Shown piece after piece: positions 4,393-25,807 of a stretch of DNA of 36,583 nucleotides. The stretch lies in contig JAESQQ010000517.1 of assembly GCA_016765095.1 (NCBI GenBank), positions 1-36,583 on the forward strand, written 5' to 3'. Each line of letters opens with the position of its first letter. Position 1 is the first letter of the stretch. The DNA comes from Planctomycetota bacterium. GTDB lineage: Bacteria; Planctomycetota; J058. The notes under the pieces are model-generated. The model was given only the letters and a program-made list of their open reading frames with translations, searched no databases and was not told the DNA's origin. Both the position numbers and the translations under genes were made by a program.

Positions 4393-4462
4393 CCTTAGGA
4401 TGCGACTGGAGACTCGGACTGGCCGTGGCAGGCCGATAGGTCCGAGGAAGCCAGAGGTTGGC

Positions 4463-5917
4463 GTGGCCCTCTCTCACCAACAGCTCGGTCCGTACAAGAT
4501 CCTGAACCTGATCGGGCGGGGCGGGATGGGGGCCGTTTATCACGCTCGGCACCCGAGCGGCGTGGAGGTCGCCCTTAAAGTCCTCCTCGCTGGAGGACGG
4601 GCGAATTCGGCCCAGCGGGAGCGCTTCCGCCGTGAGTTGAGCGCGCTCCAGCGTCTTCGCCACAGCAATGTCTTGAGCGTGATCGACGCAGGCGAGGCGC
4701 CTGACGGCTCCCCCTGGATCGCTATGCCTCTCGTCCAAGGGGAGGACCTCAAGGAGAGGCTGGCGCGGGCCGGACCGCTTCCGATCGACGAGGTCCTCGA
4801 TCTCGCGGCCCAGATCAGTGACGCGCTGGCTCATGTCCATTCCCTAGGTCTCGTCCACCGGGACGTGAAGCCTGACAACATTCTGTGTCGGGAGCAGGAC
4901 GGACTTTCGCATTGGATCCTGACCGACTTCGGACTCGTGAAGGACTTGGAGGTCAAAGAGAGCCAAGCCCTGTCCAGGTCGGGCGCGATCCAGGGAACGC
5001 CCGGGTATTGGGCGCCGGAGCAGGCCGCAGCGCGGCCGACGGGGTCCTTCACCGACGTCTACGGGCTGGGAGCGTTGCTCTATGCCGCGCTGACAGGCAC
5101 TCCGCCCGTGAGCGGGGTCACCTTTTGGGAGGTCGTCGTCGCGACTCAGCAACAGGCGCCTCGGCCTCTTCGGGAGCTCCGCCCAGAGGTTCCAAAGGCG
5201 CTCGAGAGCCTGATCATGAGGTGCCTCGAGAAGGACTCTGCCGATCGCTTCGCCGACGGGGCCGAAGTCGCTGAAGCCCTGGAAGGGCTCTCTGCCGCGG
5301 CGCCGGGCGTCCGGTCTGGGACCTTGCTCGGTGGACTTGCCTTGTTGGCGACGCTCTTCGTCCTCGGAGTCGCCGCGTTCGGCGAGTTGGCGGCTCCCGC
5401 CCGGACGCCGACCCTGATCCGAACCCCTGGCGCGAGCGTTGAGTCGAGCGCCGCCCTCTCGCCTGCGTTCGCGGGGGCAGAATCTCGGGTCGTCGAACTC
5501 CGGGCGCGGGCTCTCGAGGGCGATCGTGAGGCCTGCTTTGACCTGGGGCGGCTCTTGACCGCGGGTGTCGAGGTCGAGCAGGACCTGAGGGCTGCGGAGA
5601 GGTGGCTGACCCGAGCCGCCGAAGGAGGGCACCTCGACGCTCATTCGGTCTTGGCGTCCCTCCTCGTGCAACGACGCGGCCCCTCCTTCGACCGAAAGAA
5701 GGACCAAGCTGCGGCCTACACGATCGCGGCGAGGGGGGGCGTCGCCGGTGCGATGCTGCCCCTCTCGGGCCTGCATAGGCGGGGGTTGGGTGGCGAGCGC
5801 GACTACACGGAGGCTCGTCGCTGGATGCTGGAGGCCGTACGGCACGGGGTCCCCAGGGCGTCCGAGCAATTGAAGGCCTTGGAGGAGGAGATCGCGGCGG
5901 CCCGCGGTGACGACTGA
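4463..5917 (+). CDS. Ser/Thr protein kinase with TM segment and Sel1-like repeats
   Basis: LGPYKILNLIGRGGMGAVYHARH, LVHRDVKPDNIL, DFGLVKD, GTPGYWAPEQ; TM ALLATLFVLGVAAFG; Sel1-like CFDLGRLLTAGVEVEQDLRAAERWLTRAAEGGHLDA. ORF opens at 4295 but the GTG at 4463 fits domain start. Confidence 0.9.
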   Translation: MALSHQQLGPYKILNLIGRGGMGAVYHARHPSGVEVALKVLLAGGRANSAQRERFRRELSALQRLRHSNVLSVIDAGEAPDGSPWIAMPLVQGEDLKERLARAGPLPIDEVLDLAAQISDALAHVHSLGLVHRDVKPDNILCREQDGLSHWILTDFGLVKDLEVKESQALSRSGAIQGTPGYWAPEQAAARPTGSFTDVYGLGALLYAALTGTPPVSGVTFWEVVVATQQQAPRPLRELRPEVPKALESLIMRCLEKDSADRFADGAEVAEALEGLSAAAPGVRSGTLLGGLALLATLFVLGVAAFGELAAPARTPTLIRTPGASVESSAALSPAFAGAESRVVELRARALEGDREACFDLGRLLTAGVEVEQDLRAAERWLTRAAEGGHLDAHSVLASLLVQRRGPSFDRKKDQAAAYTIAARGGVAGAMLPLSGLHRRGLGGERDYTEARRWMLEAVRHGVPRASEQLKALEEEIAAARGDD

Positions 5918-8635: not shown

Positions 8636-11600
8636 CTACTCGTCGTCAGATTGCCACAGGTCTCGGAACCAGTCGATCGTCGAGAGCGGGTTGAGGTAAG
8701 CGGTGATCTTGGGTCCCTCTTCGCTGGTGAACGAGCCGCGGTAGTTGTAGCCCGCGCCTGGAATCCACTTGAGGAACTGGTGGAGCCCACCCGAGGTGTC
8801 GAAGGGAACGACGTCGATATCAATGTAGCCGTCGTAGCGGAAGATCCCGTCCTCGCCGTGGACCTTCATATCGCGGCCCCAGAGGTCGGCGCTCTTGATC
8901 CTGAGGCCGGTCTCGTTCATGCGGAAGTCGAGGGCTAGGTTGGGCAGGGGCTCCTGGGAGTCAGACCCTCGAATCGTGGCGACGACGACCTGGAGCGCCT
9001 TGAGGAACGCGGTGTCGAGGAGGTTGGAGTCTTCGAGGCGCAGTTGGCCTGCGCCGGAGAAGGGCCGCGGCCGCCCCGCGAGGTCGGTCCCGCCGCCCCC
9101 GCACGAGATCTTCGCGCTCAGCCGTCCGCGGAAAGCGAAGGGGATCTTGCCCTCCTTGGGGGGCTCGTCCGAGAGCCGATCCAGCTCGCGCATCATGGTC
9201 GCGAGCCTCCCGAGCCGCACGTCGCGCCCGAGGCCGAGGGCGAATTCGCAGGCGTAGGCGCCGTCTTGGAAGTCGTAGTCGGCCCGCCCGAGGAAATCGC
9301 CCTCGTAGAGCCGCGCGCGGAAGGGCTTGCCGGGCACGCCGAGCGAGAGCTTGCCCCCCTGGATTTGAAACGGACCGCGAAGGTCCCGGAATGACTGCTT
9401 GAAGAAGTCGGCTCGCGAGAGGTAGAGTTCGCCAGCGCAGCTCCCCTGCTCGAGCTCGGCGAAGCGCCCCTTGAGTCGGATCACGCCGGACATGTCCGTG
9501 AAGCCGATTCCGTCCGCGCGCTCGCCGGGCCGAGGGGGCGGGGCGTCGTCGAAGCGAGTGAGGGTCATAGCGGCGTCGCGGAAGCGAGTCTCGGTCACCC
9601 AACGCATGGCGTCGCGGGGGTCGGTTGGCTGGTAGATCCAGGCCTCGACGTCGAAGGTCCCCGCCAGATCGAACTGATCGAGGGTCTCGCGCCAGGTCGC
9701 TGGGAGCCGGGCCTCGAAGCGCTCGCGGAGGCTAGTCGGTCGATCGGGGCCCTTGACCAGGGGGTAGCGCTGGAAGTGCGTGATCGAGACGCGATAGACC
9801 TGCCCGGCCTTCCCGCGACCGGGGAATCGCTTCTCGCGCCCGGCCTCGCGCCGGATTCGAATCCGGGCCGCGTCGGGGTCCGCGGGCGCTGTCCCCCCTT
9901 GGACACGCGGGGGCGAGAGGAATCCGGTCAGGTCGATCTTGACCGGCTCGCCGTCCTCGATCCGGGCCGTTCCTGTCAGGCCGCTGACGGGGACGGCGGC
10001 GAAGTCCGCCCGAACCAAGGCCCCGCGTGGGCGAGCCTCAATGTGCACGTGCACTGTGTCGTTGGGGGACGCCTGGAAAGTCCGCAGGCTGAGTTCGGTC
10101 GGGCCTTCGACGTAGAAGGTCTTGAAGAACTCCTGGGCGGCTTCACCGGCGAGCGCTCGGGTCCGCTGGTTGATCACGAGGCCGCGGAGCTCGACGGGCA
10201 TGTCGAATCCAGTGATCTCGCCGTCTGCGAGGCGGATCTCGCCAGCCGCGAGGGTCAGGCGGGCCTTGGCGGTCGTGGCGCTCATGTCTCGGAACGTGAT
10301 CCGCTCGGGGGCGATCCCGATTCGCCCCTCGAGGTCGGTCACGGGCGCGGACTTGAGCTGGCTCATTCGCTCGTGGATTCGGTGGAGCGTGATCCTCCCC
10401 TTGGTCGCCCTCAGCTCGCCTCGGACGTCGGCCGGGCGGCTGGGATCGAGTCGGATCTTCAACGAGCCGCTCAACTCGCCGCTCGGCGAGAGCACTCGGA
10501 GCGCGTCGCGGGTCCCCTCGGGGAGGACCTCGACGAGGGTCCGCTCGAGGGGGACCCGCTCGAGCGTGACGTTGAGTTCGAGGGGCGGCGGCTCGGCACC
10601 TCCGAGGTCGATCCAGCCCGTGACTTGGAGCGATCCGCCTTGCGGCTTGCCCCCCAGCACCCGCCGGGCCACCGCGTCGTGGAGCAGGACTCGGTCCACA
10701 GCGACCTCCACGTGGAACCGCTCGACGCGGAGGGGGACGTCGAAGGCCTTGGGCCGGACCTCGAGTCCAGCTCCGACGCCCTTGACCCAAAGCGCCTGGG
10801 GGCTCTCGATGTGGACTTCGACTTGACGCGCGAGTCCGCTCGGCCGGACGGTCTTGAGCAGGTCGCGAATCAGGGCGGGGAGGACTTCGACCTTGAGTTC
10901 GCCGATCGTGGCGTTGAGGTTGGCGTCGAACTCGAGGCCGTCCTTGGGCTGAGTCGGAGGGAGGCTCAGGGTTCCGCTCGCGAGCGCGGCGATCACTCCC
11001 TCTCCTTCGAGGGCGAGGTCGAGCGCGATGTCGATTCGGTCCGGGGCCTCTTGTTCGTCGGTCGCGAACTGAGGCCGGACCTCGAGCGTGCCCGTCGCCA
11101 CGAGCGGGATCGAGGCTTCGAGGTGGTCGAAGCCGACCTTGCGGAGCTTGACCTTGATCACGGGCACGATGGGCGCGTCGAGGTGGGGCTTGGAGACCCG
11201 GACGTCGAGGTCGATCTCACCGCCCTTGAGCCGGAAGGGCTCGATCATGGCCTTGCTGTTCCCGGGCATGGCGTCGATCAAGCCCTGTCCGATCGGGACG
11301 TTCTTGGCCGTGACGTGCACGCTGATCAAGTCACCCGCCATGACTTGGGCCAGGACTTTCGCGGTCCCGCCGTGTTCGAGGGTCCCCTCGCAGTGGACCT
11401 GGACGTTGCCGCCTTCGCGGAGCTCGAACCAACCTTGAATGTTCTCGAGACGCTCGGGCACGTCGCGGAAGGAGGCTGAGAGGCGGCCGTCGAGGCGCGG
11501 GACCCAGACCGCGATCTGGGGCTCGGAGTTCTGATCGATCTTCACCACGTCGCGGACCGCCTCGATCCACTCGCGTTGCTGGAAATCCACGAATCGGATC

Positions 11601-13024
11601 GCCGCGTCGAGCCCCTTGGATCGAGGCTGCTCAGCGCTCGGGATCATGTCGCCCATCGCGTTCACCTCGAGGACGGCGTCGGGGTCTATGAGTCCGCGGA
11701 TCTTGCGCCCGTCGGACAGGACCAGAGTGTCCCGCTGCTCGGGACCCTTGCTGATCATGATGTGGGCCTCGGGGACTGTCCCCTGGGGATCGAACAGGTC
11801 GTAGACCGCGCGAATCTTGGGGGGGATCGCGTTCACGAGGTGGGGCGCGAGGGGGAGGTCGTAGGCCTGAACGGTGATCTGGAGGATGACGTTCTCGGTC
11901 TCACGGCCGGGGTAGACGGTCCCCCGGCTGATCAAGAGGCCCAGGCCCGGGTCGCCTGGCTTGGCGCCGCTGATCTTGGCGTGGACCTCCTCCCAGCTGA
12001 CGCCAAGGAAGCGGAGGTTTCCCTCGGCGACCGCGATCGAGATCTCGAACCGGCCGCCCTCGATATCGACCAACTCGACGGGGAAGCCCTTGGCCTTCAT
12101 GGCGACCGCGTGGGGGGTCAGCGAGAGGTCAATGCTGATTTGCTCTTGAGCCTTGGTGATCCGGGCCACGAGGTCCGCCTCGCCTCGCAGCGGGTTGATC
12201 ACGTCCCAGACCTCCGTCTGGAAGGTGGGCGGGATCAGGCCGCGGATCGCCCGGCTGACCACCGCCTTTCCGTGCGCCACGACGGAGAGCGGGCCGCCCG
12301 CGGTCTGGCTGAGCTCGACCGTGAGGTCGGGGAGGACGGCCTTGAACTCCTCGTTCCAGCCGAGGCCCTTGATCACCTGCTTGGGGCTGAGCCCCGTCTT
12401 GGGGACGACGGAGCCAATGCTGAGCGAGAGCGCGCCCTCACACGAGAGGTCCTTGAGAATCCGGATCCGTCGGTCTGGGAGGGTCCGGAGCTCCGAGACG
12501 AGGATCGTGGCGCCGATCCCCTCGAAGTCGTTCCTAAGCCGGAGGACCCCGCCTTCGATCTTGATGTCCAGGTCGAGGGGGAGGCTCGTGACCGGCTCTT
12601 CGTCTTCGGTGCTCTCGAACGCGAACCCCTTGATCTTCCCCTCGCGGGTGATTGTGAGGTTCGCGGTCGGATGGATTGCGGTGATCGAGAGCCGGGTCGG
12701 GATCAGGCCGTCGCTCTCGACCTTCAGCGTTGGGACCTCGAACAGGACGTCTTCGGGCTTGGTGCTGCCCTGTCGGTGGATCTTGACGTCTGAGAGGGTC
12801 AGCGTCCCCGTGAAGAAGTTGAACTCGGTCTTGGGGCCAAACTGGGCCGAGTAGCCCGGCAGCGCGGCGCGCACGAAGCGCTTGGCTTGGGCCTCGAGCT
12901 CGCGGGGGTTGCGGAGGAAGAGCCGGTAGTCGACGTAGACGTTGGCCGAGACCGTGAAGAGCACGATCGCGACCGCGAGGTGTCGCCGCGTGAACCTCTT
13001 TCGCAGGTTGGTGAGGGCTCCCAT
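8636..13024 (-). CDS. Very large AsmA/YhdP-like envelope protein
   Basis: ~1,460 aa, single N-terminal TM (HLAVAIVLFTVSANVYVDYRLF), long beta-rich body, AsmA-like C-terminal KWIPGAGYNYRGSFTSEEGPKITAYLNPL; alternative start at 13069. Confidence 0.72.
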   Translation of the reverse strand: MGALTNLRKRFTRRHLAVAIVLFTVSANVYVDYRLFLRNPRELEAQAKRFVRAALPGYSAQFGPKTEFNFFTGTLTLSDVKIHRQGSTKPEDVLFEVPTLKVESDGLIPTRLSITAIHPTANLTITREGKIKGFAFESTEDEEPVTSLPLDLDIKIEGGVLRLRNDFEGIGATILVSELRTLPDRRIRILKDLSCEGALSLSIGSVVPKTGLSPKQVIKGLGWNEEFKAVLPDLTVELSQTAGGPLSVVAHGKAVVSRAIRGLIPPTFQTEVWDVINPLRGEADLVARITKAQEQISIDLSLTPHAVAMKAKGFPVELVDIEGGRFEISIAVAEGNLRFLGVSWEEVHAKISGAKPGDPGLGLLISRGTVYPGRETENVILQITVQAYDLPLAPHLVNAIPPKIRAVYDLFDPQGTVPEAHIMISKGPEQRDTLVLSDGRKIRGLIDPDAVLEVNAMGDMIPSAEQPRSKGLDAAIRFVDFQQREWIEAVRDVVKIDQNSEPQIAVWVPRLDGRLSASFRDVPERLENIQGWFELREGGNVQVHCEGTLEHGGTAKVLAQVMAGDLISVHVTAKNVPIGQGLIDAMPGNSKAMIEPFRLKGGEIDLDVRVSKPHLDAPIVPVIKVKLRKVGFDHLEASIPLVATGTLEVRPQFATDEQEAPDRIDIALDLALEGEGVIAALASGTLSLPPTQPKDGLEFDANLNATIGELKVEVLPALIRDLLKTVRPSGLARQVEVHIESPQALWVKGVGAGLEVRPKAFDVPLRVERFHVEVAVDRVLLHDAVARRVLGGKPQGGSLQVTGWIDLGGAEPPPLELNVTLERVPLERTLVEVLPEGTRDALRVLSPSGELSGSLKIRLDPSRPADVRGELRATKGRITLHRIHERMSQLKSAPVTDLEGRIGIAPERITFRDMSATTAKARLTLAAGEIRLADGEITGFDMPVELRGLVINQRTRALAGEAAQEFFKTFYVEGPTELSLRTFQASPNDTVHVHIEARPRGALVRADFAAVPVSGLTGTARIEDGEPVKIDLTGFLSPPRVQGGTAPADPDAARIRIRREAGREKRFPGRGKAGQVYRVSITHFQRYPLVKGPDRPTSLRERFEARLPATWRETLDQFDLAGTFDVEAWIYQPTDPRDAMRWVTETRFRDAAMTLTRFDDAPPPRPGERADGIGFTDMSGVIRLKGRFAELEQGSCAGELYLSRADFFKQSFRDLRGPFQIQGGKLSLGVPGKPFRARLYEGDFLGRADYDFQDGAYACEFALGLGRDVRLGRLATMMRELDRLSDEPPKEGKIPFAFRGRLSAKISCGGGGTDLAGRPRPFSGAGQLRLEDSNLLDTAFLKALQVVVATIRGSDSQEPLPNLALDFRMNETGLRIKSADLWGRDMKVHGEDGIFRYDGYIDIDVVPFDTSGGLHQFLKWIPGAGYNYRGSFTSEEGPKITAYLNPLSTIDWFRDLWQSDDE

Positions 13025-13113: not shown

Positions 13114-14055
13114 CTACTCGCCGGGAACGTCGGCCGGGGGCTCGTCGTCTGCGGGAACGTCGGCCGGGGGCTCGTCGTCTGTGGGAGCGTCGTCCATGGG
13201 AACGTCGTCCATGGGAGCGTCGTCCATGGGCGTGTCGGCGTCGCTCGGAGCCTCTTCGTCCAGGTCGTCCTCGACTGTGTTACTGACGGTCAAGGTCTCG
13301 GGGGTGGGCTTGGCCTTGGACTCGTTGCCCGCGAAGAAGGCCCTCAGGCCAGTGGTTGGAGCGTTGCTCCGGAGGATCTTGGCCTTCGCTAGAGCCACCT
13401 CGTAGTGGTCTGAGAACCGGTCCATTTCCCGCTTTGAGGTGTCGATCAACTCCTCGCACTCGAACCGACTCATGCCCGCGCGGACTGCGCGACGGCAGTA
13501 GCGAATCGCTTCCTTCTCGGAGAACCCAAGACGCATGAGGTCCTTGTAGACCGGCAGCCAGTGGAGGGCGTTTCCGCAGTGAGGCGGGCGGTCGATCATG
13601 CGCTCGAGGGGATACCACAGCTCAACGGCCTCCTCGGTCGGCAGCCCGTAGGCAAAGGCGTCCTGGTCCTTCTTCTCTGACGTTGCTCCCTGAGCGACGT
13701 GGGCGGCGTCTAGGGCGTCGAGGAATGCCTCAGCGTCCTCCTCGTGGATATCGAGGAGCTTATCTATGTCGCGGGCGCTGACGGTCGTGCGAGCGCTGCG
13801 GCGAACCTGGTGGTCTGCCTCCTCGGGGAGGACCCCAATCGCGACCATGCCGGTGAAGACCGACGACCAGCGCAGGGAGCTGGCGTAGTAGGGCGGGTGC
13901 TCGAGGTCGTCGCAGAGCTTATCGAGGAGCTCCTGGGCCAAGACCTCTTCGTCGATCTCGGTCTCTGCCTCAGGGGCTTGGTTGTTGTGGTTGTGCGCAC
14001 AGCCTGCGCTGAACACCCCGAGCAAGATCGCCGCGGCGAAGAGTCGTGATTTCAC
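13114..14055 (-). CDS. Lipoprotein with Pro/Asp-rich tandem-repeat C-terminus
   Basis: Signal plus lipobox MKSRLFAAAILLGVFSAGC; tail PMDDAPMDDVPMDDAPTDDEPPADVPADDEPPADVPGE. Confidence 0.85.
   Translation of the reverse strand: MKSRLFAAAILLGVFSAGCAHNHNNQAPEAETEIDEEVLAQELLDKLCDDLEHPPYYASSLRWSSVFTGMVAIGVLPEEADHQVRRSARTTVSARDIDKLLDIHEEDAEAFLDALDAAHVAQGATSEKKDQDAFAYGLPTEEAVELWYPLERMIDRPPHCGNALHWLPVYKDLMRLGFSEKEAIRYCRRAVRAGMSRFECEELIDTSKREMDRFSDHYEVALAKAKILRSNAPTTGLRAFFAGNESKAKPTPETLTVSNTVEDDLDEEAPSDADTPMDDAPMDDVPMDDAPTDDEPPADVPADDEPPADVPGE
13122..13226. repeat. Coding minisatellite: 2 x 30 bp plus 3 x 15 bp
   Basis: cgggaacgtcggccgggggctcgtcgtctg twice (13122-13181), then tgggagcgtcgtcca-type unit three times (13182-13226). 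Confidence 0.9.
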
Positions 14056-14167: not shown

Positions 14168-16240
14168 TCAGCGATCGCGGAGGGCGCCGGTCAGGCCCGC
14201 GGAGGAGCCCAAATGAGCGTCCAAGGCGGCTTGGCGCCGGAGTCTGGCCTTCGCTGGGTCCAACAGGCGACGGTCTTCCTTGCGGAGGAGCGCTGCGGCC
14301 AGGTCGAGGACGAGGGCCTGGTCCTCGTAGGTCTGCGCTCGGTTCTTGCTCGCGCCGCCAAGCGAGTGGCCCAGCGCGCTCCGAAGCCGACTGCGGCCCC
14401 AGGCTGCGAGGCGATCGGTTCGCCCCCCGTAGAGGTCATGCCTCACGCCGAGGCCGGCTCGGAGCCAGCGCGCCTCGCTGAGATCGAGCTCTGTCAGGAG
14501 CACGTGGGGGCGCCGCTTGGCGGCGTAGATATCTCTCAGGGCCTTCGCTGTTGCCTCTCGGTTGGCCTCGATCGCGGCGCCGGCGTCGGCTGCGATCTCC
14601 TCGCGCTCGGATTCTTCCCGGGCGGCAGCCCAGGCCTCGAGGGAGCCGTAACGAGCGAGGAGCCGAGCCTTGAGCGCGGGGGTTCGCTCGAGGCGCTCGA
14701 GCGAGGCGCGGTGCTTGTCCGCGAGGACCTTGGCGCGCTCGCCGAGCTTGGCCATTCGGGCCATGAGGCGGGCCTCCTCGTCCTGGAGCGGTGTCAGGAG
14801 CCAGGCTCGGTAGGCGTCCCAGGCCTCGCCGTAGGTCGCTACAGCCGCGGCCACAGCGTCGGGTTTGGGGTTCTTGGCGAAGGCCTCGATCAGGGTCAGG
14901 CCCGCCTCGCCCAGGGCCTCGCGGGCCGCGCGGGCGTCCTTCCAGGCGTTGAACTGGCGCTCGATCGCGTCGGCGGCGATCAGGACGATCGTTGTCTCGG
15001 CGACGGTGTAGGCGAAGCTCCCGAGGCGACCGGCGCGGCGGAAGGTCAGCCCGAGCCGCGTCAGCCGAGAGGAGCGGGCGCCGACCCAGCGGAGCGCGCT
15101 GAGCTGAGTTCGGACCGCGGTCGAGGCCAACCCGAGCGCGGTCAGGGAGACCGCGAATCGCTCCCCGTCGAAGGTCCCCGTCGCGAGCTGGGGGAGGGCC
15201 AACCCGGCCGCCAGGGCGAGGTTCGACTTGAGGAGATTGCTCACAAAGCGCGGCCGGACGTGGGCTTGGAGGTAGCGCGCGTAGGCGACCTCGCCGGCCC
15301 GGGCGCCTACCGCGAAGAGTCCGTAGTGGACGAAAAAATCGGTGCTCGCGAGGCCGTCGAAGAACTCTCCGATCCGGAGCTTGTCGCCGGTGTGCATGAC
15401 CACCGCGAGCTCCTTGAGGAACAGCGCGAGCGTGAATCGCGCCAGCCCGCTGCCCTCCTCGACCAGGACTCGGTCTCGGAGGAGCGTCTTCCAGCGGAGC
15501 GTCTTGTCCGCCCGGCGGTAGCGATCGAGGAGCCCGGCCTTGCGGGCCAACTCGGTCTGATACTTGGCCGTCAGCTTGTTGACCGAGGCCTCGAGCTTGG
15601 CGGCGAGCTCGGGCGAGCGGGGCCGGAGGCTCTCGATCACCTGTTCGCGCGTCGCCTGGAGGTAGCCGAGCTTCCCGACGACCTCCCAGCCCCTCATGTC
15701 GCGCACGTTGTCGAGGCGGTCGAAGTATTTGAGGACGTGCGCGCTCTTGGGGGCGGTTCGGAAGCGCTCGTAGTAAGCCTTGTCGCGGGCGACTTTGTCA
15801 CCACGGAAGCGCTCGATCGGGTCGAGGGTGACCCACTGCACGATCTCGGCTGTCTTGGGTCCAAAGGCTGCCCGGATCTTCTCGATCCCGACCTTGGTGT
15901 CCTCGACCACGTCGTGGAGCACGGCGGCCTCGACCGCCACGCGATCACCGGGGGAGCCCTTGAGGAGCGCCTGGCTGATCCTCAGCGCGTGGAGGATCGC
16001 GGGCTTCCCGCCGCTTCGCACTTGCCCGTGGTGGGCCTCGCGCGCGAACTCGATCACGCGCTTGTAGCGCGCCAACTCCGCGGGGCTGAACCCAGCGGCC
16101 TTGGCGGCGGCCACGGTCTCGGCGATCGACTTCTGGATGTCCGCTGTCAGGTCTTGGCCTGTCGCAGGAGCGAGCAGTGCCAGACAGAGCAGGACGGGCG
16201 CTAGGGCAGAGCGGAGCGAGATTGCGGATCGAGTGGTCAC
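14168..16240 (-). CDS. Exported RelA/SpoT-type HD hydrolase-like protein fused to a novel C-terminal domain
   Basis: N-terminal signal (ALAPVLLCLALLAPATGQ); AREAHHGQVRSGGKPAILHALRIS, AAVLHDVVEDTKVGIEKIRAAFG, DRLDNVRDMRG match the HD hydrolase family pattern; C-terminal ~430 aa shared with the next gene. Confidence 0.82.
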   Translation of the reverse strand: MTTRSAISLRSALAPVLLCLALLAPATGQDLTADIQKSIAETVAAAKAAGFSPAELARYKRVIEFAREAHHGQVRSGGKPAILHALRISQALLKGSPGDRVAVEAAVLHDVVEDTKVGIEKIRAAFGPKTAEIVQWVTLDPIERFRGDKVARDKAYYERFRTAPKSAHVLKYFDRLDNVRDMRGWEVVGKLGYLQATREQVIESLRPRSPELAAKLEASVNKLTAKYQTELARKAGLLDRYRRADKTLRWKTLLRDRVLVEEGSGLARFTLALFLKELAVVMHTGDKLRIGEFFDGLASTDFFVHYGLFAVGARAGEVAYARYLQAHVRPRFVSNLLKSNLALAAGLALPQLATGTFDGERFAVSLTALGLASTAVRTQLSALRWVGARSSRLTRLGLTFRRAGRLGSFAYTVAETTIVLIAADAIERQFNAWKDARAAREALGEAGLTLIEAFAKNPKPDAVAAAVATYGEAWDAYRAWLLTPLQDEEARLMARMAKLGERAKVLADKHRASLERLERTPALKARLLARYGSLEAWAAAREESEREEIAADAGAAIEANREATAKALRDIYAAKRRPHVLLTELDLSEARWLRAGLGVRHDLYGGRTDRLAAWGRSRLRSALGHSLGGASKNRAQTYEDQALVLDLAAALLRKEDRRLLDPAKARLRRQAALDAHLGSSAGLTGALRDR

Positions 16241-16264
16241 GTTAGGGCGAGGGCCTCCTCGGGC

Positions 16265-19200
16265 TCAGTCGTCGCTCTCGCCCATGCGCTCGAGGGCCTT
16301 GGCCGCGCCTTCGTTGCTGGGGCCTGCGTCGACGATCCCCGACTTGTGCTCGATCAACTCGGTGTCCATGCGCTTGGTCTTGGCGATCAAGGCGACGAGG
16401 TCCTTGAGGACTTCGGCGTTGGCTGCTCTCCCTTGGGCGCGCAAGGCGGCGGCGACTTTGTTCAGGATCAGGGTCTCGTCGTCGTAAGCCTGGAGGCGGT
16501 TGGTCGAGGTGGACTCGAGGGCGTTGTTGAGCCCGCGCTCCGACCAGCTCCGACCGACGTTTGCGAGGACGTCGCCTCGAGTCCGGTAGGGGTCGCCAGC
16601 GGCGCCCCGCTCCGCGCCGAGCAGCTGCCAGTCGAGGTCCTCGACCCCGTCGAGGATTCCCTTTGCACGGCGATCACCCTTGTAGACCTTGTTCAGGCCC
16701 GCCTCGAGCGCGTTGAGGTAGGAAGCTGAATACATGTCGGCTTTGCGGTCGAGCTCCTTCTCGTCGGCCTTGACGAGGCTGTCGGCGTAGCCCTCGAGCG
16801 AGCCGTAGCGCCGGACCATGCTCTTCTTTAGAGCGGGGTAAGACTCGAGGCGTCCCAAGGCCGCCGCGCGCTTGTCCGCGGCGAGCTTGGCGTCCTTAGC
16901 GAGCTTGGCTATGCGCTCGGCGTAGACCGCCTCTTCCATGTAGAGCGGGGTGTAGAGGTAGTTGCGGTAGTCGATCCACTTCTCGTGGTACTTATCTGCC
17001 GCGTCGTTTATGTCCTCGGGCGTCGCGTCGGCGTCTCCGGCGGCCTTGAAGAACGTCCGGCCCGCGTCGCGCATGCGATCGCGCGCCTCGGACAGCTCGA
17101 GCTTTTCGTTGACCCAGCCGCCGACCTCGTCGGCGAGGTAGAGGACGACCGCCAGCTCGGCGGCGGTGTAGAACCAGCCGGTCATGCGCGCCAGGCGGGT
17201 GCTCAGGCCGAGGCGGGCCAGGGTGCCCGCGCTGCGCGCCTTGCGGAGGTTGACGACCCACTTGATCCCGGCTGCGCCGCTCTTGACCGCCGCGCTCGAG
17301 AGCGAGAGCGAGCCGAGCGAGATCGTGAGCGCCTTCCCGCTGAAGTTGCCCTCCGCGATCATGGGTAGGGCCAAGCCCGCCCCGAGCACGAGGTTGGTCT
17401 TGAGGATCCCGTTCACGAAGCCGGGCTTGATATAGCGCTGGGCGTATTTGACGTAGGCGACTTCACCGATCCGGGCGCCGGCCACGAACAAGCCGTATTG
17501 CTTGTAGAAGTCGGTCGTCATGAGCCCGTCGTAGAACTCCTCGATCCGGCTCCGGTCGCCGGTCGCGGCGACGGTCGCGACCTCCTTGAGGAACAGCGCG
17601 AGGCCGAAGTGAGCCAAGCCGCCGACTTCGCTCAGCGCCTTGCTGCGAGTCAGCTCCTTCCACTTGAGCGTCCCGTCGGCGCGACGAAAGGCCTTGAGCG
17701 GGTCCTTGCCGCCGAGCGCGGCGTCTTCGAGCGCGCGGATCCGCGCTCGCTCGCTGCCGTAGCGCTTGAAGACCTTGAGGCGCTCGATCAAAGAGCGGGT
17801 GTGGGCCTTGCCGACGGGGTTCTTGAACACGCCGACCGCAGCCCGGATCGCCATGTCGCTCAGGGGTCCGCGCGCGATCTCATAGGCCCGCACGCCCTCC
17901 ATGTCGGCGACCTTCTCGACCTTGACGCCGCTGACGTGCGCCAACTCGTGGGCGGCGATCAAGCCGACGGCCTGGCGAATCACGGCCCGGCGGGCCTCAG
18001 AGGGGAGGTTGGCGGTCTTTTCGGCGAGGGCGTCGAGGAGCCCTTGGCTGATTCGAACCTTGGAGCCTTGGGCCTCAGCGAGCACGTCGCTCGTCTTGAC
18101 GATCTCGAAGGTCGAGGTTTGGAGGTTCGCCTTGCCGCGCTGGAGCTCAGCGCGCTCTTGGCCGGTGGCCTCTGCGATTCGCTCGTCCATGCGAGCGACC
18201 ATGCCCTCGCGGATCGCGGTCAGATCGGGGGCGAGGCTCTTGGCGTCGAAGCGAGGCTGGGCCTTCTCGGCGTCGGACGCGGCGCGGCGCGGGGCGAAGC
18301 CCTCGGCCGCTGGCGGGTTGGCGGCGGCCCACTCGGCAGCGCGGTTCTTGCCGGTTTCGTTGCGGTAGCGCTCGGTCCGCTCCTCGATCTCCTTGGGCTT
18401 AAAGACCGAGGTCTCATACCACTCGAAGAGCTTGGCGCTCCGGCCGGAGTCCTTGTAGACCTCGTTCATGAAGTCGTAAATGATCCGCCGCGCGCGGCTG
18501 GCGGTCTTCATGGGCTGATAGCCCTCTGTGCCGAGTTGGCCGAACTCACCGCCTTGGACGCGCTCGGCGAGGCGCACGAGCTTGCGCGTATAGATGGCCT
18601 TCTGCTTGGCGACTTGCTCTTGGACGCCCTCGGGCAGGGCCGGGTCGTATTCGAGCGGGAGGAAGAGCCAATTGAAGGAGCTCGGGAGGAGCATTTTCTT
18701 CCCGGCCTCGGTGTCGGCGGTCGCGAGCGCCTTAACGCCCGTGCGGAGGTCTGCGTCGGCCATTGAGGAGCTGACGTTGAACCGCCCCTTGTTTTTGAGG
18801 ACCTCGTCGGCGAGCCACTCGAGCTCGCCGGCGTTCCAGCTGCTCTTGCCGGCGCTCCCGAAGCTGCGGAACTTGATCACGCCCTTGGAGCTGTGCTCGA
18901 ACATGGGGTTGGTCGCGTCGTAGACGGTCTTGCTCCCGTTGGTTCCGCCGTTTCCGAAGGTCTCGGCCGTCGCCTTGAGGTAGCTCTCAAGGCGGCCCGT
19001 GTCCTTCATGAGGCCGCGGAACTCAATGTCGATCTTGCGCTCTTCGCCGTTGCCGAGGCGTGAGACGCGGATCCCGCGGCGCTCGATAATGTCGCCTTGG
19101 GCGCGGGGGTTCTCGGCCGAGAAGATCTTCAGAGCCTTGCGTAGCTCCTCGACGTTGACCGGCTGGTTGTCCATGGACTTGAGCACGAAGTCGGTCTTGG

Positions 19201-19825
19201 AGCTGTAGTCGGCCCGCTTGAGCGCGACGGCCCACGAGGTCCGGCGGAGCCACTCCGTGAGCGCCTTGGCCTTCTCCGCGTTGACTGTGTCGGGGAAGCG
19301 AAGGTGCATGTGGAACGCGATCGTCTCTTTGACGTCGGCCTTGAGCGCCTTCATGTTCGCGAGGGCTTCGCGGGGGTTCGTGTAGGGGTTGCTCCGCACT
19401 TCAATGTGCGGAATGTTCATGCTTCCGTACCAGGAGATCGTCTTGTCGAGGTAGGGATACTTCTCGACGTTGGCCTGGAAGTTGTTGGAGTTGTAGCCAC
19501 CCTTGTAGGCCTTGAAGAAGAAGCCCGTGCGCTCCTTGATCGAGAGCTCGCTCCAGCGATCCACGACCGCGCGCTCTTCGGCCGACCAGTTCGCCGACGC
19601 GATTGGAATGATGTACTTCATGAGCGAGTGGCTGGCGGTCCGGCCCTCGGGACCGTTCCCGTGGGTCGTGGTCTTGAGCTCATAGCCGACCGTCATGGGG
19701 CCGTTGCCGACTGTGACCGACTCGGGGACGGGCTGGCCGAGCGCGACGCCTCCCGCAGCGAGGGTCAGGAGGATGGATCCCGCGAGGAAACCTGTGCGCC
19801 AAGCGCGCGGACGGGTGGTCGACAT
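16265..19825 (-). CDS. Large exported protein with HExxH metallopeptidase-like motif and the shared C-terminal domain
   Basis: Signal FLAGSILLTLAAGGVALGQ; AVGLIAAHELAHVSGVKVEKVADMEG; C-terminal half homologous by eye to 14168..16240. Start from the ATG at 19825 (ORF track opens at 20092). Confidence 0.8.
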   Translation of the reverse strand: MSTTRPRAWRTGFLAGSILLTLAAGGVALGQPVPESVTVGNGPMTVGYELKTTTHGNGPEGRTASHSLMKYIIPIASANWSAEERAVVDRWSELSIKERTGFFFKAYKGGYNSNNFQANVEKYPYLDKTISWYGSMNIPHIEVRSNPYTNPREALANMKALKADVKETIAFHMHLRFPDTVNAEKAKALTEWLRRTSWAVALKRADYSSKTDFVLKSMDNQPVNVEELRKALKIFSAENPRAQGDIIERRGIRVSRLGNGEERKIDIEFRGLMKDTGRLESYLKATAETFGNGGTNGSKTVYDATNPMFEHSSKGVIKFRSFGSAGKSSWNAGELEWLADEVLKNKGRFNVSSSMADADLRTGVKALATADTEAGKKMLLPSSFNWLFLPLEYDPALPEGVQEQVAKQKAIYTRKLVRLAERVQGGEFGQLGTEGYQPMKTASRARRIIYDFMNEVYKDSGRSAKLFEWYETSVFKPKEIEERTERYRNETGKNRAAEWAAANPPAAEGFAPRRAASDAEKAQPRFDAKSLAPDLTAIREGMVARMDERIAEATGQERAELQRGKANLQTSTFEIVKTSDVLAEAQGSKVRISQGLLDALAEKTANLPSEARRAVIRQAVGLIAAHELAHVSGVKVEKVADMEGVRAYEIARGPLSDMAIRAAVGVFKNPVGKAHTRSLIERLKVFKRYGSERARIRALEDAALGGKDPLKAFRRADGTLKWKELTRSKALSEVGGLAHFGLALFLKEVATVAATGDRSRIEEFYDGLMTTDFYKQYGLFVAGARIGEVAYVKYAQRYIKPGFVNGILKTNLVLGAGLALPMIAEGNFSGKALTISLGSLSLSSAAVKSGAAGIKWVVNLRKARSAGTLARLGLSTRLARMTGWFYTAAELAVVLYLADEVGGWVNEKLELSEARDRMRDAGRTFFKAAGDADATPEDINDAADKYHEKWIDYRNYLYTPLYMEEAVYAERIAKLAKDAKLAADKRAAALGRLESYPALKKSMVRRYGSLEGYADSLVKADEKELDRKADMYSASYLNALEAGLNKVYKGDRRAKGILDGVEDLDWQLLGAERGAAGDPYRTRGDVLANVGRSWSERGLNNALESTSTNRLQAYDDETLILNKVAAALRAQGRAANAEVLKDLVALIAKTKRMDTELIEHKSGIVDAGPSNEGAAKALERMGESDD

Positions 19826-20030: not shown

Positions 20031-22277
20031 ATGAAGCGCTCGACCCTGATCATTGTCGGCCTCAGCCTGTTGGCCGTCGGCTGCCCGGACACCCGCTCCT
20101 CTCGGAGCCCTCAAACCGTCGCGGATATCGCGCGGGTCGAGGCGGATCTCCAGGGCGTCAAAGCCCGGGTGACCTCGCTTGAGGGCGGGAACGGCTCGGT
20201 TCAGGCGCTCGAGAAGCGCGTCGCCGCGCTGGAGACCCGGCCGGTCAACGTTTTCGTGAGCGGTGGCGGCGGCACGGCGAGTCCAGATTGGCAGCCCGTC
20301 AAGGGAGGGGCCAACGGCAACGGCGGAACCGCCGCGACGCCCACGGCGACGCCGGTCGATGGGGGCGGCCCCAAGCGCCCGAGCCTGGTCTCTGCGGACG
20401 AGAAGCAGGGAATTGACGCCTGGAACTCGCTCCGCCCGCGCGAAGCGGGTGAGAAGCCAGTTCGGGGCGGCAGCATTCGAGTCTGCTTTGCCAGTCAACC
20501 CGCCAAGCTCAACTCCCACCTCGATAACAGCGCGGTGACTGGCTACATCACCACCTACATAAACGAGAGCCTGATCGAGCAGAACGGCGTCACCTTCGAG
20601 TTCGAGCCACTCCTGGCCAAGGCCTGGGAGAAGGAGGACATGCTCTACGAGATCGTGGGCGACGAGCCGATCACCAACGTCGAGTTCGTCGCGAGCCAGC
20701 AGAAGTGGGTCCGCAAGGAAGCGGACGGGACGACTCAGGACTGGTGGCCTTGGGAGATCGTCAAGGAGGGCAGTGGCTTCAAGAAGCTCAAGCTCAAGGA
20801 GCACATTGGCGTCGTGACCAAGACGGCCAAGGGCTACACGATCAAGGACAAGGCTGGCAAGACCAAGAGCTTCACGTTGGCTGCGGTGACGGAAGTCAAC
20901 ACAGGCACGGTGTTCACCTTCCACCTCCGCGAGAACGCGCTCTGGCACGACGGGAACCCGGTCACGGTCGAGGACATCATTTTCTCGCTCGATTTCATTA
21001 AGTGCGAGTTCGTCGACTGCCCCTCGCTGCGGAGCTACTACAAGGACGTGCGCCCGGCGACCAAGGTCGGTCCGAACTCGGTTCAGATCATTTACGAGAA
21101 GCAGTATTTCAAGGCGATCGAGTTCGCGGGCGGGATCGTTGCTTTCCCGAAGCACGTGTTCGACCCAGACAACCTCCTCGTCAACGACCCCAAGGCGTTC
21201 GGCGAGAAGTTCAACAAGCACCCCATGCACCGGAGGCCGGTCGGCAGCGGCCCCTACAAGTTCTCCAAGTGGGACGAGGGGATCTCGGTCACGCTCACGC
21301 GCTTTGAGGGCTATCACTCGCCCGAGAAGGGTGGCTACTTGGACGAACTGACCTGGCGCTTCATTCCCGAGAGGCAGGCCGCCTTGGCGTCTATGCGCGC
21401 CGGCGAGATCGACTTGCTGCCCGGAATGACGCCGACCCAATACTTCGACGAGACCAAAGGCGACTTCGAGAAGCGCTTCGTCAAGCCGCTCTACTACTAC
21501 GGCAACATGGGCTACATGGGCTGGAACATGCGCCGCCCGCCCTTCGACAACCAAAAAGTCCGCAAGGCCATGGCGCACGGCGCGCTCAACATCCCCGAGT
21601 TCATAAAGACCGTCCTCTATGGGGCCGGCCAGCAGGTCGCGGGTTCCCAGTACATCAAGGGCCCGGCCTACGATCACTCGATCAAGCCCTACCCCTTCAG
21701 CCCGAAAATGGCACGCAAGCTCCTCCGCGAAGCGGGTTGGTTCGATCGCGACGGCGACGGCGTGATCGAGAACGCTGACGGCATGCCCTTTGAGTTCGAA
21801 ATGCTGACTCCCCAAGGGAGCCCCACGACCCGGCAAATGATGGCGATCGTCGAGCAGAACCTGAGCAACCTCGGGATCAAAATGAGCATTCGTGAGCTTG
21901 AGTGGGCGGTGTTTATTGACAACATAAACAGCCGCGCCTTCGACGCCTGTCGGCTTGGCTGGGGCCAGTCGATCGAGAGTGACCCCTTCCAACTCTGGCA
22001 CAGCTCAGGCAGTGAGGACGGCAGCAACCACTGTGGCTTTGTCTCCGCCGAGGCCGACGAGTTGATCCTCAAGCTGCGCAAGACGCTCGACAAGAAGGAG
22101 CGCCAGAAGCTCCACTTTGCGTTCCAGAAGATCCTCTACGAGGCCCAGCCGTACACCTTTCTCTATTGCGGCCCGGCGTTGGGTGCCTACAACCCGCGCT
22201 TTCACGGGGTGCGCTTCACCCCGCTTCGCCCGGGCTACGACCTGCGCGAGTGGTACGACGTGGACGCCCAGAAGTAG
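20031..22277 (+). CDS. ABC transporter substrate-binding lipoprotein, family 5 (peptide type)
   Basis: Lipobox LLAVGC; GSIRVCFASQPAKLNSHLDN, FHLRENALWHDGNPVTVEDIIFSLDF, VGSGPYKFSKWDEGISVTLTRFEGYH, NQKVRKAMAHGALNIPEFIKTVLYG. Confidence 0.93.
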   Translation: MKRSTLIIVGLSLLAVGCPDTRSSRSPQTVADIARVEADLQGVKARVTSLEGGNGSVQALEKRVAALETRPVNVFVSGGGGTASPDWQPVKGGANGNGGTAATPTATPVDGGGPKRPSLVSADEKQGIDAWNSLRPREAGEKPVRGGSIRVCFASQPAKLNSHLDNSAVTGYITTYINESLIEQNGVTFEFEPLLAKAWEKEDMLYEIVGDEPITNVEFVASQQKWVRKEADGTTQDWWPWEIVKEGSGFKKLKLKEHIGVVTKTAKGYTIKDKAGKTKSFTLAAVTEVNTGTVFTFHLRENALWHDGNPVTVEDIIFSLDFIKCEFVDCPSLRSYYKDVRPATKVGPNSVQIIYEKQYFKAIEFAGGIVAFPKHVFDPDNLLVNDPKAFGEKFNKHPMHRRPVGSGPYKFSKWDEGISVTLTRFEGYHSPEKGGYLDELTWRFIPERQAALASMRAGEIDLLPGMTPTQYFDETKGDFEKRFVKPLYYYGNMGYMGWNMRRPPFDNQKVRKAMAHGALNIPEFIKTVLYGAGQQVAGSQYIKGPAYDHSIKPYPFSPKMARKLLREAGWFDRDGDGVIENADGMPFEFEMLTPQGSPTTRQMMAIVEQNLSNLGIKMSIRELEWAVFIDNINSRAFDACRLGWGQSIESDPFQLWHSSGSEDGSNHCGFVSAEADELILKLRKTLDKKERQKLHFAFQKILYEAQPYTFLYCGPALGAYNPRFHGVRFTPLRPGYDLREWYDVDAQK

Positions 22278-22298
22278 TAGAGCGGAGACCTCGGGCCG

Positions 22299-23753
22299 AT
22301 GCGCGACTACATCCTCAGGCGACTTCTCCTGGTGCCGGTGACCCTGTTCGGGATCAGCGTGATCACGTTCATGATCATTCGGCTCGCGCCGGGTGATCCG
22401 GCGGAAATGAAGGTCTCGCCAGGCGTCGGCGGCGAGCAGCAGGCCGACAAGAACGTCTCGAAAGAGATCTACGAGCGGACCCTCGAGCAGTTCGACCTCG
22501 ATAAGCCTCGCCACATGCAGTACCTGCGCTGGGTTGGAAAGCTCTGCGGGATCGACGTCCAAGTCGAGGGTGCCAAGAACGTCTACAAGGCGGAAGTCCT
22601 GGCGCTCCTGGTCGAGAAGTACAAGGGGATCAGCGCCCCCCAGATCGAGAAGCGCAAGGGCGAGATCGAGGTCTCGGTCGCCAAAGAGGCGAAGTTGGCG
22701 ATCCGGGCGAGGGACGCCAGGCTCCAGAGAGACCTGAACGAGGGCACGTCTCCCGACCCCGAGTTTGTTAAGCAGGAAGCCGCCAAGTTCGAGGCCAGAT
22801 ACGGCCCGGCAGGGCAGGAGGCGCGGGCCGAGAAGCAGCTTAACGCTTGGATCAAGGCCCAGGCTGCGGACCAGCGCTTCAAGTACGGCGACGAGATCAA
22901 TACGATCCGGGCGCGGTTCCGAACCGAGTATGGCGACGACTTCGAGTCCTACTTCAGTTGGAAGGGGTTGGCGCTCAATCGAACCCAGGACGGCGGTTGG
23001 TATCCGCTCGATTTTGGAAGGTCGTTCAAGGACGACCGTGAAGTCCTCGTGATCCTCAAGGAGAAGATTCCGCGCTCCCTTGAGCTCTCGCTGTTCTCGA
23101 TCTTCTTGGCCTACGTGATCGCGATCCCGATCGGGATCCACAGCTCGGTCAGCCAGGGCAAGCTCAGCGATCAAGTCATTACGACGACGCTCTTCGTTCT
23201 CTACTCGCTCCCGAGCTTCTGGGTCGCGATCATGCTCCTGCTCTTGGTCTCGGCGGGCGGGGTCTTTTTGCGCTGGTTCCCGGTCGGCGGCCTAGGCCCA
23301 GACGTCACGGACCCGATCTCGCTGTTCGAGCACCTGTTCCACCTTGTCCTGCCGGTGTTCTGCCTGACCTACGCGAGCTTCGCCTACATCAGCCGCCAAA
23401 TGCGGGCAGGCATGCTCGAGGTGATTCGCCAGGACTTCATTCGCACGGCGCGGGCCAAGGGCCTCCCCGAGCATGTCGTGATCCTCAAGCACGCGCTCCG
23501 CAACGGAATGATTCCGCTGATCACGATCGTGGCTGTGATCCTGCCGGCCTTGATCGGCGGGAGCGTGATCATTGAGACGATCTTCAATATCGACGGGGTC
23601 GGGCAGCTGAGCTTTACGGCGATCCTGACCCGCGACTATCCGATCATCATGGCGATCTTCACCCTCTCCGCTCTGCTGACGCTGTTCGGGATCCTGCTCT
23701 CCGACGTGCTCTACGTCATCGTCGATCCGCAGATCTCCTTCGAGGGCAAGTAG
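22299..23753 (+). CDS. DppB/OppB-like ABC permease with ~145-aa insertion
   Basis: MRDYILRRLLLVPVTLFGISVITFMIIRLAPGDPAE; FIRTARAKGLPEHVVILKHALRNGMIPLITIVAVILPALIGGSVIIETIFNIDGVG. Confidence 0.93.
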   Translation: MRDYILRRLLLVPVTLFGISVITFMIIRLAPGDPAEMKVSPGVGGEQQADKNVSKEIYERTLEQFDLDKPRHMQYLRWVGKLCGIDVQVEGAKNVYKAEVLALLVEKYKGISAPQIEKRKGEIEVSVAKEAKLAIRARDARLQRDLNEGTSPDPEFVKQEAAKFEARYGPAGQEARAEKQLNAWIKAQAADQRFKYGDEINTIRARFRTEYGDDFESYFSWKGLALNRTQDGGWYPLDFGRSFKDDREVLVILKEKIPRSLELSLFSIFLAYVIAIPIGIHSSVSQGKLSDQVITTTLFVLYSLPSFWVAIMLLLLVSAGGVFLRWFPVGGLGPDVTDPISLFEHLFHLVLPVFCLTYASFAYISRQMRAGMLEVIRQDFIRTARAKGLPEHVVILKHALRNGMIPLITIVAVILPALIGGSVIIETIFNIDGVGQLSFTAILTRDYPIIMAIFTLSALLTLFGILLSDVLYVIVDPQISFEGK

Positions 23754-25807
23754 TGAGCGACACGGACACAGCAGCCGCCGCCGAGGAGCGCACGCGCGAG
23801 CAGGCGAGCGGAGTCATCGACCGAACCTACTTCGACATCGTGGCGGATCAGTTCAAGCGCAACCGCCTGGCGGTGGTCGGTCTGCGGGTGATCGTTGCCC
23901 TGATCCTCGTGGCTGTGTTTGCGCCTTTCCTCGCGAACAGTCGCCCGATCGTGTTCAACGGCTACCGCTACAAGAGCTACCTCGAGGCCTACGACCAGCT
24001 CGTCTACGCCCACGGGGACCTGTTCGGTGTCGGACGGGACGGGGAGAAGCTCCAGATTCCCGGTCTCGAGGGCAGCGACGACGCGAATCTAGCCCCAGAG
24101 GACAGAGGCCTCAGCCTGCCCGGCTTAGGGACGGTCTATCAGAACGAGATCAAGGACTGGGACGCGGGGACTCAGACTTGGAAGCAGGTTCGGAACGTCT
24201 CATTCGGTGAGGCCGAGCCGCTCATGAACCGGCTTCGGGTTCGCCTCGAAGAGGAGATCCCCAGCCTCGAGAAGGACAACCTCTGGAAGCGGGGCTACCG
24301 CAAGATCTCCTACCTCAGGACTCGCGGAATCCCCAAGGACATTGAGGCCGACCTCGACGACCTCTTGGTCCTGGCCCGCAAGAACCTCGACGAGGGCTAC
24401 CGCGCCAAGGCCGCCCTCCGCCAGCGTTCGCTCCTTCAGCAGTTCAAGACGCTCCAGGCCGAAGTCTCCGCCGAGGACCGCGAAGCGATCCGCGAGTTCG
24501 CGGCTCGTTACAAGGCGGCCGTCGTCGGCGACTTCCACATGCGACCTCCCGCCGAGCTGGCGGAATACGACGACTTCCTGATCGAGGTCCGGACTCGTTT
24601 GGCCCCCAGTGAGGGTGTCGGCTTGCCTGGGGTCAACTTCGAGTCGCACTGGGACTTCCCGGCGATCCGTCAACTGGAGGCGCTCGAGATCCTGTTCTTG
24701 GTGTTCGTGATCTTGGCCGGGAGCGTTCGGCTCTGGGGTCGCCTGATCCACTGCGAGCGGCCCCAGGACGAGCTGATCCGCAAGGTGATCGTGATCGCGA
24801 TCCTGCCCTTCCTCGTGGCGGGAGCCTGGGCGGTGTTAGTGCCCAGATACAGCGACACGACGGACTATCAGGCCGGGATGGTCAACGGAGATTTGCGAAC
24901 CAACTTCCGGGTCATGGCACCCCTGCGCTACGGCGTCAACGACAACAACCCGAGCAAGAAGTGGACGCCGCCCTGGTGGTTTGGGGACAAGGAGGAGACC
25001 GAGGCGAAGTCGAAGGCTGTCCTGGGCGTGACCCAGCTCGATCGCGACTTGGCCCTGCTTGAGCAGCGGATCGAGAAGCTCAAGACCGTCCCCCCGGGCG
25101 GGGAGGGTGGCTGGAGCTCGTTCCTCGACTTCCTCAACCGTCACCACATGGGCACAGACGGAACGGGTCGAGACCTGACGACGCGCATGATCTGGGGCAG
25201 CCGGATCTCACTCTCGATCGGTTTCGTAGCGGTCGGGATCTATATCTTCATTGGGATCGTGCTGGGTGCCATGGCGGGCTACTTCGGCGGGACGGTCGAC
25301 ATGGTGATCAGCCGGATCATTGAGATCGTGATCTGCTTCCCAACTTTCTTCCTGATCCTGACGGTGATCGCGTTCATTGGTCCGAGCATTTGGAACATCA
25401 TGTTCGTGATCGGAATTACGGGTTGGCCTGGTGTGGCCCGCTTGGTTCGCGGTGAGTTCCTGCGCCTGCGGAGCCGCGACTTCGTCGTCGCTGGCGTCGC
25501 GCTTGGCTTCAGCGACTTGCGCTTGATCTTCCGCCACATTCTCCCTAACGCCCTCGCGCCGGTCCTGGTGGCTGCGACCTTCGGTGTGGCGAGCGCGATC
25601 TTGGTCGAGTCGAGCCTCTCGTTCCTGGGCTTTGGCGTGAAGGTCCCGACCCCGACCTGGGGCTCGGTCCTCAGCTCGGCTCGCGAGAGCTACAAGTTCT
25701 GGTGGATCACGCTCTTCCCGGGCCTCGCGATCTTCCTGACGGTGACGATGTACAACCTCGTCGGCGAGGGAATCCGCGACGCGGTCGATCCCAAGCTGCG
25801 CCAGTAG
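23753..25807 (+). CDS. DppC/OppC-like ABC permease with ~370-aa insertion including extra TM helices
   Basis: FKRNRLAVVGLRVIVALILVAVFAPFLA; HHMGTDGTGRDLTTRMIWGSRISLSIGF; LVRGEFLRLRSRDFVVAGVALGFSDLRLIFRHILPNALAPVLV. Confidence 0.93.
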   Translation: MSDTDTAAAAEERTREQASGVIDRTYFDIVADQFKRNRLAVVGLRVIVALILVAVFAPFLANSRPIVFNGYRYKSYLEAYDQLVYAHGDLFGVGRDGEKLQIPGLEGSDDANLAPEDRGLSLPGLGTVYQNEIKDWDAGTQTWKQVRNVSFGEAEPLMNRLRVRLEEEIPSLEKDNLWKRGYRKISYLRTRGIPKDIEADLDDLLVLARKNLDEGYRAKAALRQRSLLQQFKTLQAEVSAEDREAIREFAARYKAAVVGDFHMRPPAELAEYDDFLIEVRTRLAPSEGVGLPGVNFESHWDFPAIRQLEALEILFLVFVILAGSVRLWGRLIHCERPQDELIRKVIVIAILPFLVAGAWAVLVPRYSDTTDYQAGMVNGDLRTNFRVMAPLRYGVNDNNPSKKWTPPWWFGDKEETEAKSKAVLGVTQLDRDLALLEQRIEKLKTVPPGGEGGWSSFLDFLNRHHMGTDGTGRDLTTRMIWGSRISLSIGFVAVGIYIFIGIVLGAMAGYFGGTVDMVISRIIEIVICFPTFFLILTVIAFIGPSIWNIMFVIGITGWPGVARLVRGEFLRLRSRDFVVAGVALGFSDLRLIFRHILPNALAPVLVAATFGVASAILVESSLSFLGFGVKVPTPTWGSVLSSARESYKFWWITLFPGLAIFLTVTMYNLVGEGIRDAVDPKLRQ

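Follow-up and report, generated by a model that had tools for sequence, protein, structure and literature searches.

Polymorphic toxin systems carry their toxin at the C-terminus and their trafficking region at the N-terminus, and are accompanied by adjacent immunity genes (Zhang et al., 2012; PMC3482391). Exported alarmone synthetases are RSH enzymes that are exported by Sec, lack immunity genes and are toxic when kept in the cytoplasm (PMC12691689). Here we describe two adjacent genes, A and B, that invite comparison with both. They lie in the window, by which we mean the whole 36,583-nt stretch of DNA analyzed (contig JAESQQ010000517.1, C304 in our numbering), which belongs to the 8.57 Mb metagenome-assembled genome (MAG) of a Planctomycetota bacterium (GCA_016765095.1, here G000). 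The two proteins share a C-terminal domain, which we call the chassis, behind different N-terminal parts, the heads. We find that they are members of a sizeable modular family that is seen in one planctomycete order and apparently previously undescribed; no paper describing it was found in the open-access literature.

Like polymorphic toxin systems (PMC3482391), the family has a constant trafficking part, a variable enzyme part, built-in processing peptidases and Sec- or RHS-linked export. Unlike them, it has its variable part at the N-terminus, no immunity genes that we could find, heads that appear to be inherited vertically, and a new domain as the constant part. Gene A resembles the exported alarmone synthetases (PMC12691689) in being an RSH-family gene with a predicted Sec signal peptide and no immunity gene, and by analogy we consider them its nearest functional precedent, although A has a hydrolase (HD) domain, not a synthetase domain, and carries the chassis. 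Our reading, which we hold tentatively and with less than even confidence, is that the members are lineage-specific Sec-exported enzymes mounted on one membrane-associated carrier tail, some of them with a release peptidase, and possibly aimed at other cells.

Results

Two tandem genes share a C-terminal domain

Genes B and A lie in tandem on the minus strand, B first (16265-19825, ATG at 19825) and A second (14168-16240, 690 aa, GTG start), separated by 24 bases. Both open reading frames (ORFs) are present where a preliminary description of the window had placed them. The chassis of A (14171-15517) and that of B (16268-17686) align by BLASTP from a YRRAD boundary to close to the C-terminus, with 181 of 426 residues identical (42%; 274 bits, E 3e-83), and the boundaries given earlier for the shared region are correct to within a few bases. 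Both proteins had also been called exported, which agrees with the Sec-like signal peptides predicted in A (MTTRSAISLRSALAPVLLCLALLAPATGQ, 16154-16240) and in B (MSTTRPRAWRTGFLAGSILLTLAAGGVALGQ, 19733-19825) by a hydropathy heuristic rather than by SignalP.

We considered whether the shared region could be a well-characterised family, and found no match: a search against PDB sequences returned noise only (E at least 0.066), 38 members gave no consistent family in Pfam, and the chassis model gave nothing below E 0.44 against PDB folds. The alpha-pore-forming toxins AhlB and SmhB appeared as weak fold matches with template modelling (TM) scores below 0.2 and were not used.

A chassis family in one order of Planctomycetota

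The genome of the window contains 13 chassis copies, 39% to 100% identical to that of A, and the profile built from them (A1) was used for a wider search. It recovered members with many other heads. Seven more Planctomycetota MAGs from this order gave 7-19 matches apiece, bringing the family to about 75 members over eight genomes. The common chassis with variable heads that had been proposed from the A/B pair is thus wider than first suggested. Identical head-chassis combinations occur in independent MAGs, which argues that they are not assembly chimeras. No full-length chassis was found outside the order among 392 genomes drawn across Planctomycetota. Weak partial matches were seen in one genome of the same order (G007) and in two from elsewhere in the phylum (G033 and G164); one match in G007 (L133) belongs to a protein of 685 aa that has a signal peptide but hardly any head. 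Named records carrying the domain are exclusively from Planctomycetota or uncultured-bacterium MAGs, and viral contigs held no relative.

Beyond the family, the chassis is detectable only as a half-match in the tails of RHS-repeat (YD) proteins. Homology between these C-terminal tails and the chassis extends over columns 171-449 (hhalign probability 98.5, E 4e-15), but as detected the tails are without the first ~170 chassis residues, and an RHS repeat region stands in place of the enzyme head. A and B themselves gave no Pfam match to RHS/YD repeats. Five RHS-repeat proteins with such tails (L135, 1054-5688; L137, 585-5282; L138, 903-5660; L140, 2235-8297; L089, 49-4929) have a motif of the type NPSxNRTISFQDEIDLL in common, and each of them terminates with the tail, with no separate toxin recognised.

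Different enzyme heads and a shared hinge module

The head of A had been described as an HD hydrolase, and it can be assigned more exactly to the RelA/SpoT type, resembling small alarmone hydrolases and MESH1. It matches Pfam HD_4 (15692-16051; 58.5 bits, E 8.6e-16) and also the spoT_relA subfamily model (E 6e-19), yet falls far under the cut-off of that full-length model. The HD-ED and DRLxN motifs are kept, as HDVVEDT and FDRLDN. AlphaFold2 modelled the head with a predicted local distance difference test (pLDDT) value above 90 over most of its length, and the model matches 3nr1, 5vxa and 3nqw, which are MESH1/small alarmone hydrolase structures, with TM-scores (target) of 0.78-0.81. On sequence and model, the head of A is a RSH HD fold with its catalytic motifs, and a predicted small alarmone hydrolase. 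It has fold and motifs in common with these enzymes but differs from them in its export signal and its fusion to the chassis, and its hydrolase activity is a prediction.

The head of B (18551-19717) carries GxELK, IEVRSNP, FHMHLRF and DIEFRGL motifs and aligns with the second of two domains in large paralogues that also contain helix-hairpin-helix repeats (hhalign probability 99.6, E 9.9e-24). The first domain of these paralogues is Amidoligase_2 (33.0 and 32.3 bits in L070 and L111, against a cut-off of 22 bits). Gene B (P0002) matched no Pfam family, Amidoligase_2 and RHS included, and hhalign gave no significant alignment between the first and second domains of the paralogues, so that the term amidoligase-like rests for B on position and motif pattern; we infer that its head may belong with Amidoligase_2.

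The preliminary description took HExxH to be the head of B. The motif is real (HELAH, 17936-17950), but it lies in a separate module of ~190 aa adjoining the chassis (aligned stretch 17687-18331), which recurs directly before the chassis in 22 members with differing upstream domains, the motif standing 83-98 residues ahead of the chassis. The invariant residues of the aligned modules (H128, E129, H132, G135, E139, A142 and D143) make up the pattern HExxH-x2-G-x3-E-x2-AD. From this alignment, B's HExxH belongs to a predicted peptidase-like hinge module used with different heads, and not to B's own head. As in Peptidase_M48 and other HExxH gluzincins, HExxH is followed by E-x2-AD, although here just 6 residues separate HExxH from the conserved Glu. 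Four of the 22 modules match Peptidase_M48 weakly (best E 3.8e-4; L092 17.9 bits against a cut-off of 20.3), none of them above the curated cut-off, and the module gave no match to solved structures. Nine other proteins, of a conserved neighbouring-pair type seen on contig C811 (the C811 type), have D-E-L-T-H at the equivalent position, with an invariant Glu 38 residues downstream.

Members were taken with stop-to-stop ORFs, and their N-terminal parts were clustered by BLAST into 19 groups, many of them mutually dissimilar; a few consist of very short sequences or may be mis-framed, and we count more than 14 as unrelated. Pfam families above cut-off comprise HD_4, Transglut_core (L011), ELFV_dehydrog (L012), AstE/M14 (L016), Amidoligase_2 (L070, L111), Fic (L078), Amino_oxidase (L104), all polyphosphate kinase (PPK) domains (L075), Peptidase_S8 (L130; a subtilase head joined to a half-length chassis) and HHH_3 arrays. 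SelO (L014), phosphorylase (L018, L077) and methyltransferase (L092) heads are below cut-off and tentative. Catalytic motifs are retained in the HD, transglutaminase, Fic (HPFWDANGRSTR) and PPK (LKTHAK, EHTR) heads. A likeness of one of the C811-type heads to ADP-ribosyltransferases was an impression of ours that Pfam did not match, and it was dropped. By the same hydropathy heuristic, 59 of 77 ORFs have a Sec-like signal peptide at their start, with AxA-Q(P) as its typical end, and many of the remaining 18 are very long open frames in which the true start is not located. Export of the members is well supported by these predictions.

Several relatives have a different layout. Four large subtilase (S8) proteins (L130, 2-4765; L131, 5368-10101; L132; L129) have the first ~320 chassis positions in the middle of the protein, with another long region behind them. 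Five very large exported proteins of up to 2459 codons (L017, L070, L097, L082, L111) combine amidoligase domains with at least four helix-hairpin-helix repeats, a motif usually tied to DNA binding.

Predicted fold and topology of the chassis

AlphaFold2 predicts the chassis to be all-alpha. Its first ~190 residues, rich in highly conserved Gly/aromatic positions, form five hydrophobic helices (pLDDT about 45-70), and the C-terminal part is a helical bundle modelled with confidence (pLDDT mostly above 85). The net charge before, between and after the five helices alternates (+2.5, -3.2, +3.3, -0.8, +4.2, -1.7; 37-38 sequences), and one member has a LysM domain behind the chassis, which suggests a C-terminus facing the cell wall. 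From sequence and model we infer that the chassis would insert into a membrane and leave its C-terminal bundle outside, and membrane association is moderately supported. The preliminary description had proposed a possibly novel envelope system; an envelope location is favored by the export signals, the LysM domain and the charge alternation, and the system as such is plausible.

The same features could be expected of a tag that assembles diverse enzymes into one body, such as a vesicle, a membrane fold or a coat. An oligomer would show conserved Gly/aromatic residues together with low confidence for the monomer, as the first 190 residues do, and the tag is the sole part common to unrelated enzymes. 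Since there is no direct sign of co-assembly, and a hinge peptidase would detach the head from its tag, we regard this as very improbable.

Inheritance and genomic context

Two gene pairs are found side by side repeatedly: B-A, in four genera (the window, L071, L094 and L112), and the pair of the C811 type, in five genomes. Head types mostly cluster in the chassis tree. Approximately unbiased (AU) tests do not reject a single origin per head type (glutamate dehydrogenase, GDH, p 0.15 in the full tree; HD p 0.64, SelO p 0.30, GDH p 0.66 and B type p 0.08 in a 32-row tree). Recent head swapping had been hinted at by the tree and by within-genome chassis identity, but gained no support from the AU tests; an internal deletion may account for the difference between L009 and L010, whose chassis are 72% identical, and the 5′-end of L009 is missing. 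The ratio of nonsynonymous to synonymous substitution rates (dN/dS) is mostly 0.08-0.4 in orthologue pairs of G004 and G006, with one head at 0.65; values for the distant pairs of G000 and G001 carry less weight, and frame extents are approximate. Head types thus appear to be mostly inherited together with the chassis, and the AU results and dN/dS point to a maintained gene set that is not rapidly shuffled.

Stable, vertical inheritance of the head types and purifying selection are what one would expect if the chassis is a permanent membrane or cell-wall anchor and the heads act on extracytoplasmic peptides, amides and scavenged nucleotides of the producer, with no second cell involved. The LysM domain of one member, the peptide and amide enzymes among the heads (transglutaminase, AstE/M14, amidoligase, subtilase) and the lack of immunity genes or recurrent neighbors fit with this as well. 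From general knowledge of their families, the Fic, SelO-like, PPK, GDH and alarmone-hydrolase heads work with cofactors or substrates of the cytosol, which argues against it, and we consider such envelope-resident enzymes a real possibility, but lean against them.

No gene family is found repeatedly next to the members, and hence no immunity gene is apparent; PADLOC found nothing relevant. This bears on the idea of a polymorphic toxin system turned around, in which a constant C-terminal domain delivers swappable N-terminal toxins against close kin. Effector-like heads (Fic, transglutaminase), a processing peptidase and a chassis tail related to RHS proteins are in its favor. Polymorphic toxins are defined by C-terminal toxins and adjacent immunity genes (PMC3482391), and neither was found in the family, its variable enzymes being N-terminal. 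Such systems also exchange their toxin domains by recombination, and here the AU tests do not reject one origin for each head type. Taken together, this makes the idea unlikely.

Delivery by a type VI secretion system (T6SS) or a contractile sheath was considered and set aside, as each is found in 6 out of 10 genomes from the order and not in all family carriers, and as the members themselves bear Sec signals. On contigs C797 and C975 of the window's genome, and in most relatives, there are T6SS VipA and phage-sheath-like genes.

A conserved adjacent pair of chassis genes (L018, L077, L086, L106, L121) has one phosphorylase-like and one unidentified head, mostly with the D-E-L-T-H hinge. In the window, A is followed on the minus strand by a gene for a 313-aa protein with no Pfam match (13114-14055) and one for a 1461-aa TamB-like protein (8636-13021). 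Divergent from B on the plus strand are a family 5 solute-binding protein and two ORFs resembling oligopeptide ABC importer permeases (20031-25807), both with large inserts. Two Ser/Thr protein kinases, one with FHA domains and one with a Sel1 repeat, are encoded at 1972-5917 (plus).

Discussion

We tentatively favor exported enzymes on a membrane-associated carrier tail, possibly aimed at other cells. The Sec signal seen in most members would export the head-chassis protein, the first ~190 residues of the carrier may insert as membrane helices with the C-terminal bundle outside the cytoplasm, and the head would as a result be held in or beyond the envelope. In peptidase-bearing members the head could then be cut free from the carrier, which is plausible. 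The periplasm is not expected to contain ATP, NAD(P) or alarmones. As the Fic, SelO-like, PPK, GDH and alarmone-hydrolase heads need these, they probably act in the cytoplasm of another cell, as effectors against neighbors or prey. Such action on other cells is possible; it is the least certain step, and the site of head action is the main uncertainty. Export itself would protect the producer and make an immunity gene unnecessary, and we count as a precedent the Sec-exported alarmone synthetases, which are toxic only in the cytoplasm and have no immunity genes (PMC12691689).

Several observations weigh against this reading. Heads are conserved between genera, dN/dS is low and swapping is unsupported, unlike what is seen in fast-evolving toxins. 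The family is linked to no delivery machine, and no T6SS sheath gene was found in G003 or G008, both of which are family carriers. The five helices are marginally hydrophobic (mean 19-residue maxima 0.8-1.5), which leaves membrane insertion uncertain, and the membrane half of the chassis was modelled at low confidence. The charge alternation suggests that the head side of helix 1 lies in the cytoplasm of the membrane concerned, which is hard to reconcile with a head that bears a signal peptide if that membrane is the inner one of the producer; the inner-membrane topology is therefore not simple, and there may be four crossings and not five, or insertion into another membrane. Finally, several of the heads (GDH, PPK, amine oxidase) are to our knowledge not known as toxins.

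The chassis could also be a self-contained delivery device. After export by Sec it would enter the membrane of a target cell such that its N-terminal side faces the cytosol of that cell and its C-terminal bundle lies outside, in line with the charge alternation, and would carry one of more than ten heads across, to be freed by the HExxH peptidase in about a third of the family. We doubt that it works this way; if it did, the family would be a toxin-like delivery family of reversed polarity and without immunity genes.

Enzymes of at least nine recognisable classes, several of them dependent on cytosolic cofactors, are joined to export signals and to one uncharacterised domain, and the chassis profile is a ready means of finding further such proteins. 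What purpose is served by cytosol-type enzymes with export signals thereby becomes a testable question. If our reading on exported enzymes and their carrier tail is confirmed, the chassis would represent a new carrier or delivery module, and would indicate how alarmone hydrolase, PPK or GDH heads could work outside the cell that produces them.
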